Shown: one piece after another, positions 10,666 to 62,342 of the stretch
Layout: each line of letters starts with the position of its first letter
Position numbering within the stretch: the stretch's first letter is position 1
Source: Jiella mangrovi
GTDB taxonomy: Bacteria; Pseudomonadota; Alphaproteobacteria; Rhizobiales; Rhizobiaceae
Assembly: GCF_017815135.1 (NCBI RefSeq)
Contig: NZ_JAGJCF010000003.1
Location: 186,001 to 250,000 of the forward strand
Direction: 5' to 3'
Length of the DNA stretch: 64,000 nucleotides
Program-made: the position numbers and the translations under genes
The notes under the pieces: generated by a model
Seen by the model: the letters and a program-made list of their open reading frames with translations, nothing else
What the model was told of the DNA's origin: nothing
Databases searched by the model: none

Positions 10666-10763
10666 CCTTTTCGGTGAGAGCCGGTTCGGGTTTCAAGTAC
10701 GGACAATTCGGCTCGACAAAGCGAGGATAGTTTCAGGGGAACTCGTGTTCGCCGGAACCGCGC
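10666..10763 (+). repeat. Dispersed ~100-bp repeat, copy 1
   Basis: It shares an ordered set of blocks with 15921-16020 and with the reverse complement of 62238-62342: an imperfect GCCGG..CGG.TTTC hairpin, then CGGACAAT.CGGCTCGACAAAG, then GTTTC.GG..AACTCGTGTTCGCCGGAA. It lies just downstream of the small membrane protein gene. It is noncoding and diverged. Confidence 0.8.
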
Positions 10764-10910
10764 CGGAAGCCATGTAAAGCCGGCTGGAAAGGAGCGGCTG
10801 TCGATGGCACGGCACCGGCTCCTCCCGGGCAATGAGAATTTCCACAGCGGACCGTGCCGAAACGGGTTGCCAATCCGGAAACGGCCAGTTATATCCCGCC
10901 GCATTGGCAC

Positions 10911-15905: not shown

Positions 15906-15920
15906 TACGCTCGGGCTGGG

Positions 15921-16020
15921 CCATTTCCCGTGAAGGCCGGCTCGGCTTTCATCGGCGGACAATGCGGCTCGACAAAGTGACGAGGGTTTCGGGCGAGCTC
16001 GTGTTCGCCGGAAACGCTCC
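15921..16020 (+). repeat. Dispersed ~100-bp repeat, copy 2
   Basis: This is the best-preserved of the three copies: hairpin GAAGGCCGG-CTCGGCTTTC, then CGGACAATGCGGCTCGACAAAG, then GGGTTTCGGGCGAGC and CTCGTGTTCGCCGGAAACGCTC. It begins 16 bases after the dapD stop and marks the left edge of the accessory block. Confidence 0.85.
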
Positions 16021-16071
16021 AGATGGCGGCGCGTTGTTCGTGCTGCTTCGTTCAGCCCGATACATGCATCG

Positions 16072-16845
16072 CTATCTGAGAATGGCAGACCACGTCTTCG
16101 GCCCGACGATGCCGTCCGGGTTGAGGCTTTTGGTGCGCTGAAATGCGCGCACTCCGGCTTCGAGCATATGGTCGAACTCGCCGGTCTCGCTCGAGCCGAG
16201 TTTTCTCTGGATGATCTTTACGTCTTCGGTCTTTGCGCCGCGGCGAAGGGTGGGTTTCTTCGACGACGGATCGACGGCCTCGATCATCGTCGCCGTCTGC
16301 GCGTCTCCGGCAAGGATGCCGCTGATCGCGCGCCTGAAGGCTTCCATGTCGAAGGCGGGATCGGAGGAGCTGCCAAATGGCTCCGCATATTCCTTGTGTC
16401 CGCAGCACATTTCAGCGCCGGCACCGAGCTTCTTCAAAAGGGCCGCAGCACCCCACTGCAACGCTTCCATCTGGGCCGCCGGCCAGGGGTCGGGCGCAAG
16501 GCCGCTGTGTTCGGCGCATATCGCAATGAAGCCGGCATTGGCGTTGGTCACGGTCTTCCACGATCCGCGACCCGCATGATTGGCGCGTCCCGCCGCAATG
16601 ACGTAAAACGTGCCGTCGCGGCCGACGCCAATATTGGCGAGAGGCCCCGAAAAACCGGGGCGCCCCTTGGTCAGAACGTCGAGGGCAGGCATGTTGGCGC
16701 CGTCCTTCGAACCGGTGTGATGGCACATCACGCCGAGCGGTCTGCCGATCTGTGCCGTGCCACGATCCTCCCAGCCGTCGACCTCCGCGACTTTCAATCC
16801 GTGATCAAGAAGCGTCCCCGCCAACCATGTGAGAGCATACGCCAA
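16072..16845 (-). CDS. Signal-less amidase with peptidoglycan-binding domain
   Basis: A 257-residue protein. The N-terminal ~180 residues look like an amidase_2 / PGRP N-acetylmuramoyl-L-alanine amidase: candidate zinc-site residues are H42-H43 (VMCHHTG), H90 (RANHAGRGSW) and the H150-x-E152 segment (CCGHKEYA). A peptidoglycan-binding-1 domain follows at about 198-256 (TLRRGAKTEDVKIIQRKLG ... GIVGPKTWSAIL). No signal peptide is visible, which is more like a phage endolysin than a housekeeping amidase. It lies 41 bp downstream of, and in line with, the GFSER membrane protein gene, so they probably form an operon. The exact substrate is inferred. Confidence 0.75.
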   Translation of the reverse strand: MAYALTWLAGTLLDHGLKVAEVDGWEDRGTAQIGRPLGVMCHHTGSKDGANMPALDVLTKGRPGFSGPLANIGVGRDGTFYVIAAGRANHAGRGSWKTVTNANAGFIAICAEHSGLAPDPWPAAQMEALQWGAAALLKKLGAGAEMCCGHKEYAEPFGSSSDPAFDMEAFRRAISGILAGDAQTATMIEAVDPSSKKPTLRRGAKTEDVKIIQRKLGSSETGEFDHMLEAGVRAFQRTKSLNPDGIVGPKTWSAILR

Positions 16846-16886
16846 GTTTGTCTTCCTTCTCCCATTCTTCGACCGCTTGACCGCAG

Positions 16887-18191
16887 TCAGGCCGCCTTCA
16901 CGCCGCCTGTCGAAGCGGGGAGGTTCTCGTCCTTGGTCATGTCAGCCGCCCGCAGCGGGCTCTTGTGGATGCAGCCATCGCCGAGCTCGTCGGAGGCCTG
17001 GAAGGCGCTTGCCGAGGCTGCTGCCTGCTGATTGGCCGCCTGTCCTTCGGCCGCAGATCCGAGGGGGTTCATTTCGCCCTGGCCGGCCTTGCCATCGGTT
17101 CCGACGGCCATGCCCTCGCTGCCGGCGAGGTTCTCGGCATTCGAAAGATTTCGGGCAAACCGATTGAGCACGTCGCCGACCAGTCTCTCGGAAAAGCCGG
17201 CGAGAAATGCGACGACGATTTCAAGATGCGTGATTCGCGACGGTGCAAAGTCGCCGGATGGCCCACCAATCGTCAGATCGATCGGTCGCTCGCCGATGGT
17301 CAGCGAGATGAGGCCACTCTTGAAGATCGAAAACAGGATGACGGCAGACGTCGCCCCGATAAATATCCGCAAAATGGCGTCGCAGATATTGTCCCGTCTC
17401 TGGATATCGGTCTTGATGCTGCGATCCCGGATACTGATCGCTATCGAGAACATCGCGCCGATGGCACCGAGCGCGATCGCGAGCGTTATGTTGCTGCTTG
17501 ATACGAAACGCCAGAAACTGGCCTCTGCGAAAAACAGACCGAAGAAATGCGTCAACCAGGAAGCAAATTCGAGAAAATAGATCCAGAAATCCCCCGAAGG
17601 TCCGGACGCATTCCCGGTGTCCGAAGGATAGCTGGATCCGATGTATTCAAAAAAATTCGTGCTGAATACAGACGTGAAAAACGTCTTCCATAAGATTTCG
17701 ATCAATGCCGGGATCAGGAAGACAATGGCGGTCAATCCTGCCGCCTTGAGATGTTGGGTTCGTCCAAGCGACAGACGTTCTTCCAATATGTCGGCCTTGA
17801 CCTCATTCAAGATGGCAAGTGCGACATCCTGGTAACCCTGGAGACTGATGACGAGCGCATCGGCCGTACGCCGATCGAAAAGCTTTGCGAGAGCCGCGTG
17901 TTTCGATCGGGGTTTCTTCGTGCGCCAGCCATCGATCAGGCCGTTGATCTGCCCACGCACGGGGCCGAGCTTTGCCAAGGAGAGGCGTTGCTCTCGGCCG
18001 AGAGGGGTGCCGCTGTCGGCCATGACCTCTTCGTCGGCGAATTGAACGAGGACCCGCTCGAGCGTGCGGTAGACGGCATATCGCCCCGTGACTTTCGCAT
18101 AGACGAAGTCCACGACCTTACCCGTGCAATCCTTCTCACCCACATAGATGTCGGCCACTCGAAACGGTGCCATGAGATCTCTCACTCGCAT
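16887..18191 (-). CDS. Multi-pass membrane protein with GFSER motif
   Basis: A 434-residue protein I cannot name. Residues 1-145 are predicted cytoplasmic, helical and rich in Lys/Arg. Membrane spans follow near 148-167, 202-222, 234-254 and 272-292, then a final hydrophobic stretch near 322-341 that ends in FLAGFSERLVGDVL. The last ~90 residues are Ala/Gln/Gly-rich and probably disordered. The segment AFLAGFSER recurs in uncharacterised bacterial membrane proteins, as far as I recall. Codon choice is visibly richer in A/T than in the neighbours. A TTG three codons upstream, or an internal ATG six codons in, could also start it. The amidase gene follows in the same direction. A palindrome lies upstream. 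Confidence 0.65.
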   Translation of the reverse strand: MRVRDLMAPFRVADIYVGEKDCTGKVVDFVYAKVTGRYAVYRTLERVLVQFADEEVMADSGTPLGREQRLSLAKLGPVRGQINGLIDGWRTKKPRSKHAALAKLFDRRTADALVISLQGYQDVALAILNEVKADILEERLSLGRTQHLKAAGLTAIVFLIPALIEILWKTFFTSVFSTNFFEYIGSSYPSDTGNASGPSGDFWIYFLEFASWLTHFFGLFFAEASFWRFVSSSNITLAIALGAIGAMFSIAISIRDRSIKTDIQRRDNICDAILRIFIGATSAVILFSIFKSGLISLTIGERPIDLTIGGPSGDFAPSRITHLEIVVAFLAGFSERLVGDVLNRFARNLSNAENLAGSEGMAVGTDGKAGQGEMNPLGSAAEGQAANQQAAASASAFQASDELGDGCIHKSPLRAADMTKDENLPASTGGVKAA

Positions 18192-18211
18192 GAGACGCAA
18201 CGGAAGGTGAG

Positions 18212-18241
18212 TATATTGGAAGTTGTGGTTCTTACAATATA
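18212..18241. promoter_or_regulatory. Inverted repeat upstream of GFSER membrane protein
   Basis: TATATTG (18212-18218) and CAATATA (18235-18241) form a perfect 7-bp inverted repeat separated by 16 bases, in an A/T-rich patch 20-50 bp upstream of the membrane protein start. The geometry suits an operator overlapping a promoter. The regulator is unknown. Confidence 0.45.
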
Positions 18242-18328
18242 AAATTGTTGTTTGGAGCTACACTCCCTGCGCGGTTCGAGTTATGTGGACACGGTTCATC
18301 CCGTCGCATGGCGCGCGATCGAGGCCGC

Positions 18329-18352
18329 ACATCCTCGATTGGTTGAGGATGT
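18329..18352. other. Perfect 8-bp stem hairpin before DUF2233 gene
   Basis: ACATCCTC and GAGGATGT pair perfectly around the eight-base loop GATTGGTT. On the plus strand it is followed by TTTCG and then, 28 bases on, the DUF2233 start. It could be a leader hairpin or an operator; a terminator is less likely because the U-run is only three bases. Confidence 0.4.
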
Positions 18353-18380
18353 TTCGCAAACGGCCTAAGAACCGAAAGCC

Positions 18381-19142
18381 ATGCTCCATCTCAGTCTCGC
18401 TGCCGCCATCACTGCCGCAACCAGCCTGTTCGGCTTCTTTCAGGTCGTTCCCGATCTGCCGGCGGGTCATGCCGGCCTTTGCCGGACGGAGACGGTCCGG
18501 AACGTCGAGTATATCGTCTGCGATGTGCCGCTCGATCGCTATCGGCTATCGCTTCGCGCTGTCGACGAAGCCGGCAAGCCTTATGAGACCTTCGAGGCGG
18601 CCAGGGCCTCGATGGGCGGTGCGAATGTGCGGCTGATCATGAATGCCGGCATGTATCACGCGGACAGACGGCCCGTCGGGCTTGCGGTCGAGGACGGCAG
18701 GGAGGTTCACGGCGCGGTGCTCGGCACCGGCAGCGGCAACTATTCGCTTCGCCCCAACGGCGTGTTCTTCGTCGAGAACGGGCGGGCGCATGTGATGGAA
18801 TCGACCCGCTACACGAGCGGCGATCACCGCCCGGACCTCGCCACCCAGTCCGGGCCGATGCTGGTGATCGACGGCAAGCTGCATCCGCGCTTCATCGAGA
18901 ATTCCGACAGCCGCCATGTGCGCAACGGCGTCTGCGCGCGGGAGGGTGGCCGGCTCGTCACCCTCGTTCTGTCCCGATCGCCAGTGAATTTCTGGGACTT
19001 CGGCAGTTTCTTCAAGGATCAGCTCGGCTGCCGTGACGCTTTGTTCTTCGACGGCACGATTTCAAGCCTATATTATCCCGAAGGCGGGATCGACTATCGC
19101 CGCGATCGCCTCGGTCCGATGCTGGTCGTCACCGATCGCTGA
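18381..19142 (+). CDS. Phosphodiester glycosidase family protein (DUF2233)
   Basis: A 253-residue protein with an N-terminal hydrophobic signal-like segment (LHLSLAAAITAATSLFGFF) and a DUF2233/NAGPA-type domain. The family blocks are LIMNAGMYHADRRPVGLAVEDG, GNYSLRPNGVFFV, ATQSGPMLVIDG and DALFFDGTISSLY. Relatives include the uncovering enzyme that removes GlcNAc from phosphodiesters; bacterial substrates are mostly unknown. Periplasmic location is likely. It sits inside the block between dapD and dapE. Confidence 0.8.
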   Translation: MLHLSLAAAITAATSLFGFFQVVPDLPAGHAGLCRTETVRNVEYIVCDVPLDRYRLSLRAVDEAGKPYETFEAARASMGGANVRLIMNAGMYHADRRPVGLAVEDGREVHGAVLGTGSGNYSLRPNGVFFVENGRAHVMESTRYTSGDHRPDLATQSGPMLVIDGKLHPRFIENSDSRHVRNGVCAREGGRLVTLVLSRSPVNFWDFGSFFKDQLGCRDALFFDGTISSLYYPEGGIDYRRDRLGPMLVVTDR

Positions 19143-62237: not shown

Positions 62238-62342
62238 AGAGCGTTTCCGGCGAACACGCGTTCACCGGAAACCCTTATCGCTGTGCCCTGCCGCATCGTC
62301 CGCGCGTGAAAGCCGAACCGGCTTTCGCTGGAAAAATGCTCC
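62238..62342 (-). repeat. Dispersed ~100-bp repeat, copy 3
   Basis: The reverse complement matches 15921-16020 along its length: GAAAGCCGGTTCGGCTTTC hairpin, CGGACGATGCGG, GGGTTTCCGGTGAACGCG and GTGTTCGCCGGAAACGCTCT. It starts 20 bases past the nnr stop and ends directly before the panE-like stop. Confidence 0.8.

Follow-up and report, generated by a model that had tools for sequence, protein, structure and literature searches.

Phage endolysins of the Amidase_2 plus PG_binding type (phrog_880) combine a catalytic and a wall-binding domain and have no signal peptide, and in holin-endolysin cassettes a membrane protein adjoins such a signal-less lysin. For the EACC1-caspase membrane-associated two-gene conflict system and EAD-linked effectors, caspases are reported as well as effectors that attack the wall, of lysozyme-like and papain-like kinds (Kaur et al. 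2020, PMC7159879). In Streptomyces, the cytosolic particles of a contractile injection system need a membrane protein, CisA (PMC12237407).

We analysed a two-gene locus in the window (the whole 64,000-nucleotide stretch of Jiella mangrovi DNA under study). Its amidase resembles the phage endolysins in both domains and in having no signal peptide, but it is coupled to a tailed upstream protein, occurs outside phages and, in the window copy, lacks the Glu and Lys of its family. As in holin-endolysin cassettes, the membrane protein adjoins a signal-less lysin; here, however, the membrane bodies are interchangeable, large and equipped with a head, and the common element is a short tail. The nearest idea that we found is that of the EACC1-caspase and EAD systems (PMC7159879), in which a constant linking part likewise joins variable modules, and loci related to ours carry caspase, CHAT/TCAD7 and TIR genes. 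In contrast to that system, the constant enzyme here is the amidase, and Pfam matched neither window protein to an EACC1, EAD or caspase domain. CisA, likened here by description only, would be a conceivable parallel for those copies of the pair linked to extracellular contractile injection (eCIS) clusters, whereas the window genome has no eCIS marker. We found no description of the tail or of the pair in the literature, and since the search was limited to open-access papers, we regard the tail-amidase pair as provisionally new. The features of the locus are as follows.

15906..18412, no strand assigned: inserted segment of ~2.5 kb between dapD and a NAGPA-type (phosphodiester-glycosidase) gene; in eight genomes of the same genus it is missing or far shorter
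16072..16845, minus strand: signal-less N-acetylmuramoyl-L-alanine amidase (Amidase_2 + PG_binding_1), TTG start, 257 aa (Pfam, PHROG, alignment)
16366..16368, minus strand: S160 codon, in a column that is Lys in relatives (GRKxDP to GSSSDP; family alignment)
16516..16518, minus strand: C110 codon, in a column that is Glu in relatives (IGIEAE to IAICAE; family alignment)
16887..18200, minus strand: GFSER-family membrane protein with a cytoplasmic head, ~4 TM helices and a conserved C-terminal tail, 437 aa from TTG 18200 (ATG 18173 likelier)
16896..16997, minus strand: C-terminal tail DGC...T-x-D-x-x-L-P-x-A-x-G-G-V (tail profile E=2.8e-12), a putative amidase-docking or regulatory element
17166..17228, minus strand: last TM helix with the FLAGFSERLVG motif, common to the wider GFSER membrane family (sequence comparison)
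17751..18173, minus strand: N-terminal cytoplasmic head of ~140 aa, in which three strands precede helices (pLDDT ~90 for most of the AF2 head model)

The original prediction had named the downstream product a signal-less peptidoglycan amidase. Its open reading frame, both domains and the absence of an export signal are all borne out: curated Pfam profiles match the Amidase_2 fold (E=1.7e-15) and the wall-binding domain PG_binding_1 (E=9.3e-11), phrog_880 (endolysin) matches in PHROG (E=1.6e-42), and hydropathy and charge revealed no hydrophobic N-terminus and no TM or signal-like stretch by which the enzyme could be exported on its own. The Zn-ligand pattern H/H/D, invariant across the family alignment, is kept (H42, H150 and D162). 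The conserved Glu and Lys of Amidase_2 zinc amidases are missing: the window copy has Cys (C110) for the family Glu in IGIE and Ser (S160) for the family Lys before xDP, and both residues are retained in every other amidase copy that we checked. In printed alignments the Glu is kept in AmpD and AmpDh2, and the Lys in AmpDh2 and 9hna. By homology we take the two columns to be E116 and K162 of AmpD, in which this Glu and Lys have a catalytic role. In the amidase tree, no branch is longer than that of the window copy, at 1.36 compared with a median of 0.35. Judging from the two replacements and the very long branch, this amidase has probably lost catalysis, which would make the copy degenerate or non-catalytic.

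The membrane protein gene lies upstream, exactly 41 bp away as had been claimed. ATG 18173 is its likelier start, because homologues point there. The earlier description of a multi-pass protein with a ~145-residue cytoplasmic head is plausible, with a head of ~140-150 aa and ~4 TM helices predicted. It had placed the end of the protein at FLAGFSERLVGDVL, which is wrong: this stretch covers residues ~332-345 of 437, and the protein runs on for ~92 residues, through a linker and then the conserved tail DGCIHKSPLRAADMTKDENLPASTGGVKAA. Pfam detected no domain above the cut-off in the membrane protein. Structure prediction, suggested earlier as part of a check, matched no solved fold, either with the AF2 model of the whole protein (poor, pLDDT 50) or with the good model of the head domain.

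The tail comprises ~30 residues, and the window tail gene is the sole significant match to the tail profile in its own genome; the product of this gene closes with T-x-D-x-x-L-P-x-A-x-G-G-V/I, and the amidase gene follows immediately. A tail gene stands directly upstream in 16 PGB-type amidase loci from four proteobacterial classes, Acidobacteria and Bacteroidota, a set gathered mostly by amidase similarity and not a random sample. Amidase relatives of ~50% identity occur in Dyella, Variovorax and MAGs of Comamonadaceae, Acidobacteria, Deltaproteobacteria and Hyphomicrobiaceae, as well as on plasmids of Hymenobacter, Rhizobium etli and Caballeronia; in each, the directly upstream gene ends in the same tail motif. 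The gap between the two genes is -4 to 41 nt in 13 loci and 105 nt in the Hyphomicrobiaceae locus. DGC is absent from some tails (G563, G727, G816).

The tail profile (A6) gave one strong match per carrier, and across 680 whole genomes all its matches with E<=1e-4 were to genes beside an amidase; with the recurrence of the pair in G055 and R. etli, this makes the arrangement more than a coincidence. Among 381 Burkholderiaceae genomes the amidase profile matched seven and the tail profile six, all six within those seven; in the seventh (G816) the tail was recognised by eye. G563, G587, G727, G812 and G816 are not among the profile's sequences, and four of the six Burkholderiaceae matches come from outside it. 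Likewise, among 299 genomes of the order of Dyella, the tail profile matched Dyella alone. The link is not absolute, since no tail was found at the PGB-type amidase of Acaryochloris, the sole exception of this type. No tail was found either at two gammaproteobacterial amidases without the binding domain or at one phage amidase.

The proteins that carry the tail fall into several kinds. Family a (GFSER) is found, tailed, in the window, in G055 and in R. etli; family b (MFGS...GAPFWFD) in Dyella, Acidobacteria, Hymenobacter, Caballeronia, G587, G812 and G816; and family c (LPPGSIRA) in Variovorax, Comamonadaceae, the deltaproteobacterium, G563 and G727. The tailed protein of the Hyphomicrobiaceae locus is small, basic and soluble-looking, suggesting that a membrane anchor is not obligatory. 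Comparison of the three membrane families with hhalign aligned the tail (E 6e-7, 2.5e-7 and 7e-10), which was all that aligned between a and b and between a and c; between b and c the last TM stretch was added. A tree gave no resolution of the order in which upstream families were swapped, and sequence searches of families a and b against solved structures returned chance-level matches only. Homologues of family b on ten further plasmids match over about residues 1-330 only; the amidase matches include none of these plasmids, and no tail was seen at the seven of these loci that were read. Because the upstream bodies are unrelated yet tailed, and tail-less relatives are without this amidase, sequence comparison indicates that the conserved unit is the tail plus the amidase, and that the membrane body is exchangeable.

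This changes the part assigned to the membrane protein. The original prediction named repeated pairing of the two families as support, and the pair does recur, at 38-54% identity in G055 and on the R. etli plasmid. That the membrane protein is the specific partner or route of the amidase is not supported, as the amidase follows the tail on unrelated membrane bodies and once on a soluble-looking protein. Wide occurrence of the membrane family without an amidase neighbour had been named as evidence against the pairing, and this holds in part: some GFSER proteins have neither tail nor amidase, among them the one that G006, of the same genus, carries at this very site. In the R. etli amidase (L053 6001-7380) the C-terminus is extended by ~200 residues that Pfam did not match and that, by eye, look like a second wall hydrolase.

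The neighbours of the tail-less family-b genes on plasmids are a patatin, a CHAP/Hydrolase_2 wall hydrolase (R. phaseoli), haloperoxidase/PAP2 or unrelated genes. In the wider GFSER family, the G070 protein adjoins a signal-less phage-type lysozyme, the Bosea protein adjoins amidase, lysozyme and caspase genes, and a Skermanella relative lies near an LCAT-like lipase and NlpC/P60-SLT. GFSER or related membrane families are also found without a lysin in G006, R. leguminosarum, Isosphaeraceae and Salipiger. Given these lysin and lipase neighbours, the membrane bodies often sit with envelope enzymes, while the tail goes with this amidase. Some related loci lie beside contractile-injection clusters, caspase, CHAT or TIR genes, or other wall lysins, and neighbourhoods that vary so widely indicate no single trigger or function. 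The Bosea plasmid cluster (L132 805-8295) contains TIR, M23, GFSER protein, Amidase_2, lysozyme and caspase genes; two genes downstream from its amidase, G812 encodes a CHAT protease that has a TCAD7 domain (L082 9641-12025); and in G727 a 1309-aa protein with VanY, Peptidase_M23 and 3D domains is encoded near the tail and amidase pair (L083 8365-12294).

How might the tail act on the amidase? For families a, b and c, hydropathy and charge, the only basis of the assignment and a rough one by which the topology may be wrong, predict a cytosolic tail, which could thus meet the unexported amidase. We propose, at about an even chance, that the tail docks and restrains the amidase at the inner membrane until signalled release and self-lysis, the window copy being probably degenerate or non-catalytic. 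The docked enzyme would be held there, probably inactive; the attached membrane or head module would respond to a signal, and the amidase would then be released to the wall for regulated self-lysis. The predicted compartment, the near-overlapping genes and the exchangeable bodies fit docking and restraint, though the role of the tail may equally be simple tethering, inhibition or chaperone-like action, or be exerted in some other way. More tentatively, the short C-terminal tail might be a transferable docking code: with it, many membrane or sensor proteins of unrelated origin would recruit the same family of cytosolic lysins and hold it in check, as a modular, non-phage self-lysis switch across phyla. 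Lysis or abortive infection is a possible function of the pair.

In G070, Bosea and Skermanella, GFSER-type proteins accompany signal-less lysins other than this one (lysozyme, amidase with lysozyme, and NlpC/P60, respectively), and tail-less family b accompanies the CHAP/Hydrolase_2 protein in R. phaseoli, as would be expected if the multi-pass body opened the inner membrane and let the amidase pass, in the manner of a holin and its endolysin. We consider this unlikely, because the upstream bodies are unrelated, one of them looks soluble, and the same membrane families also occur without lysins. Membership among holins was rejected for the window protein, which has 437 aa and a large head with no phage gene near; the phage search, run on the related G070 protein only, gave no match. 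The prophage or defence-island setting that had been named as support was not seen either: a prophage origin was set aside, as there was no IMG/VR relative and the phage matches were to distant, ordinary endolysins, and PADLOC models of known anti-phage systems gave no match.

Two further explanations draw on contractile injection. The pair stands at the end of an eCIS cluster in Dyella, and in G563 and G727 it lies downstream of such a cluster, with which it shares contig and strand; these placements, together with the tight gene coupling, would suit an upstream protein that protects the cell through its tail while the amidase serves as an effector elsewhere, delivered for instance by a contractile injection system. 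The eCIS marker Pvc16_N is, however, present in 5/18 genomes or records, and was not found in the window genome (G000), G055 or eight other carriers (three of them represented by plasmid records only); moreover, immunity to a wall enzyme would be expected in the periplasm and the tail is predicted to be cytosolic. Such protection is rather improbable. The pair could instead aid the release or anchoring of contractile injection particles, since the marker occurs in four of the six Burkholderiaceae carriers tested (the seventh, G816, is outside this count) against a family baseline of 53/301 (binomial P about 0.01), and lies on the same contig in three carriers. G563 and G727 are close relatives, so that these cases are not independent, and with the marker absent from most carriers we judge an accessory role very improbable.

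Docking and restraint by the tail would bear on a wider problem. Little is understood of bacterial programmed lysis outside phages, and least of all the way in which a wall enzyme is kept harmless in the cytosol and later let out; a single conserved tail by which membrane proteins of unrelated families are paired with the same kind of lysin offers a directly testable handle. The tail profile can also be used to pick out more members from membrane proteins that lack annotation.

The two genes are borne out as a unit that recurs (G055 and the R. etli plasmid) and as an insert. The site is empty in most genomes of the genus: in seven, the gap from dapD to the NAGPA-type gene is only roughly 100-220 bp. 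In an eighth (G005) it is ~700 bp and is filled by an acetyltransferase-like ORF (L130 2361-3071), which makes the site look like a variable slot, and in G006 the site holds only the GFSER protein, without tail or amidase. The amidase was found in 2/395 genomes of the family, and the pair in G055 occupies a different site. The window pair is best explained as an instance of a two-gene module that moves horizontally, inserted here as a unit. We also looked for mobile-element ends, and no flanking direct repeats resembled target sites. A dispersed repeat of ~100 bp occurs in the window at 15924-16023, 10668-10767 and 62239-62334, matches the genome 14 times at E<=0.001, and is more structured than shuffled sequences (z -2.6). 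The left edge of the insert bears one copy, which the loci of relatives lack; the repeat resembles rhizobial RIME-like elements.
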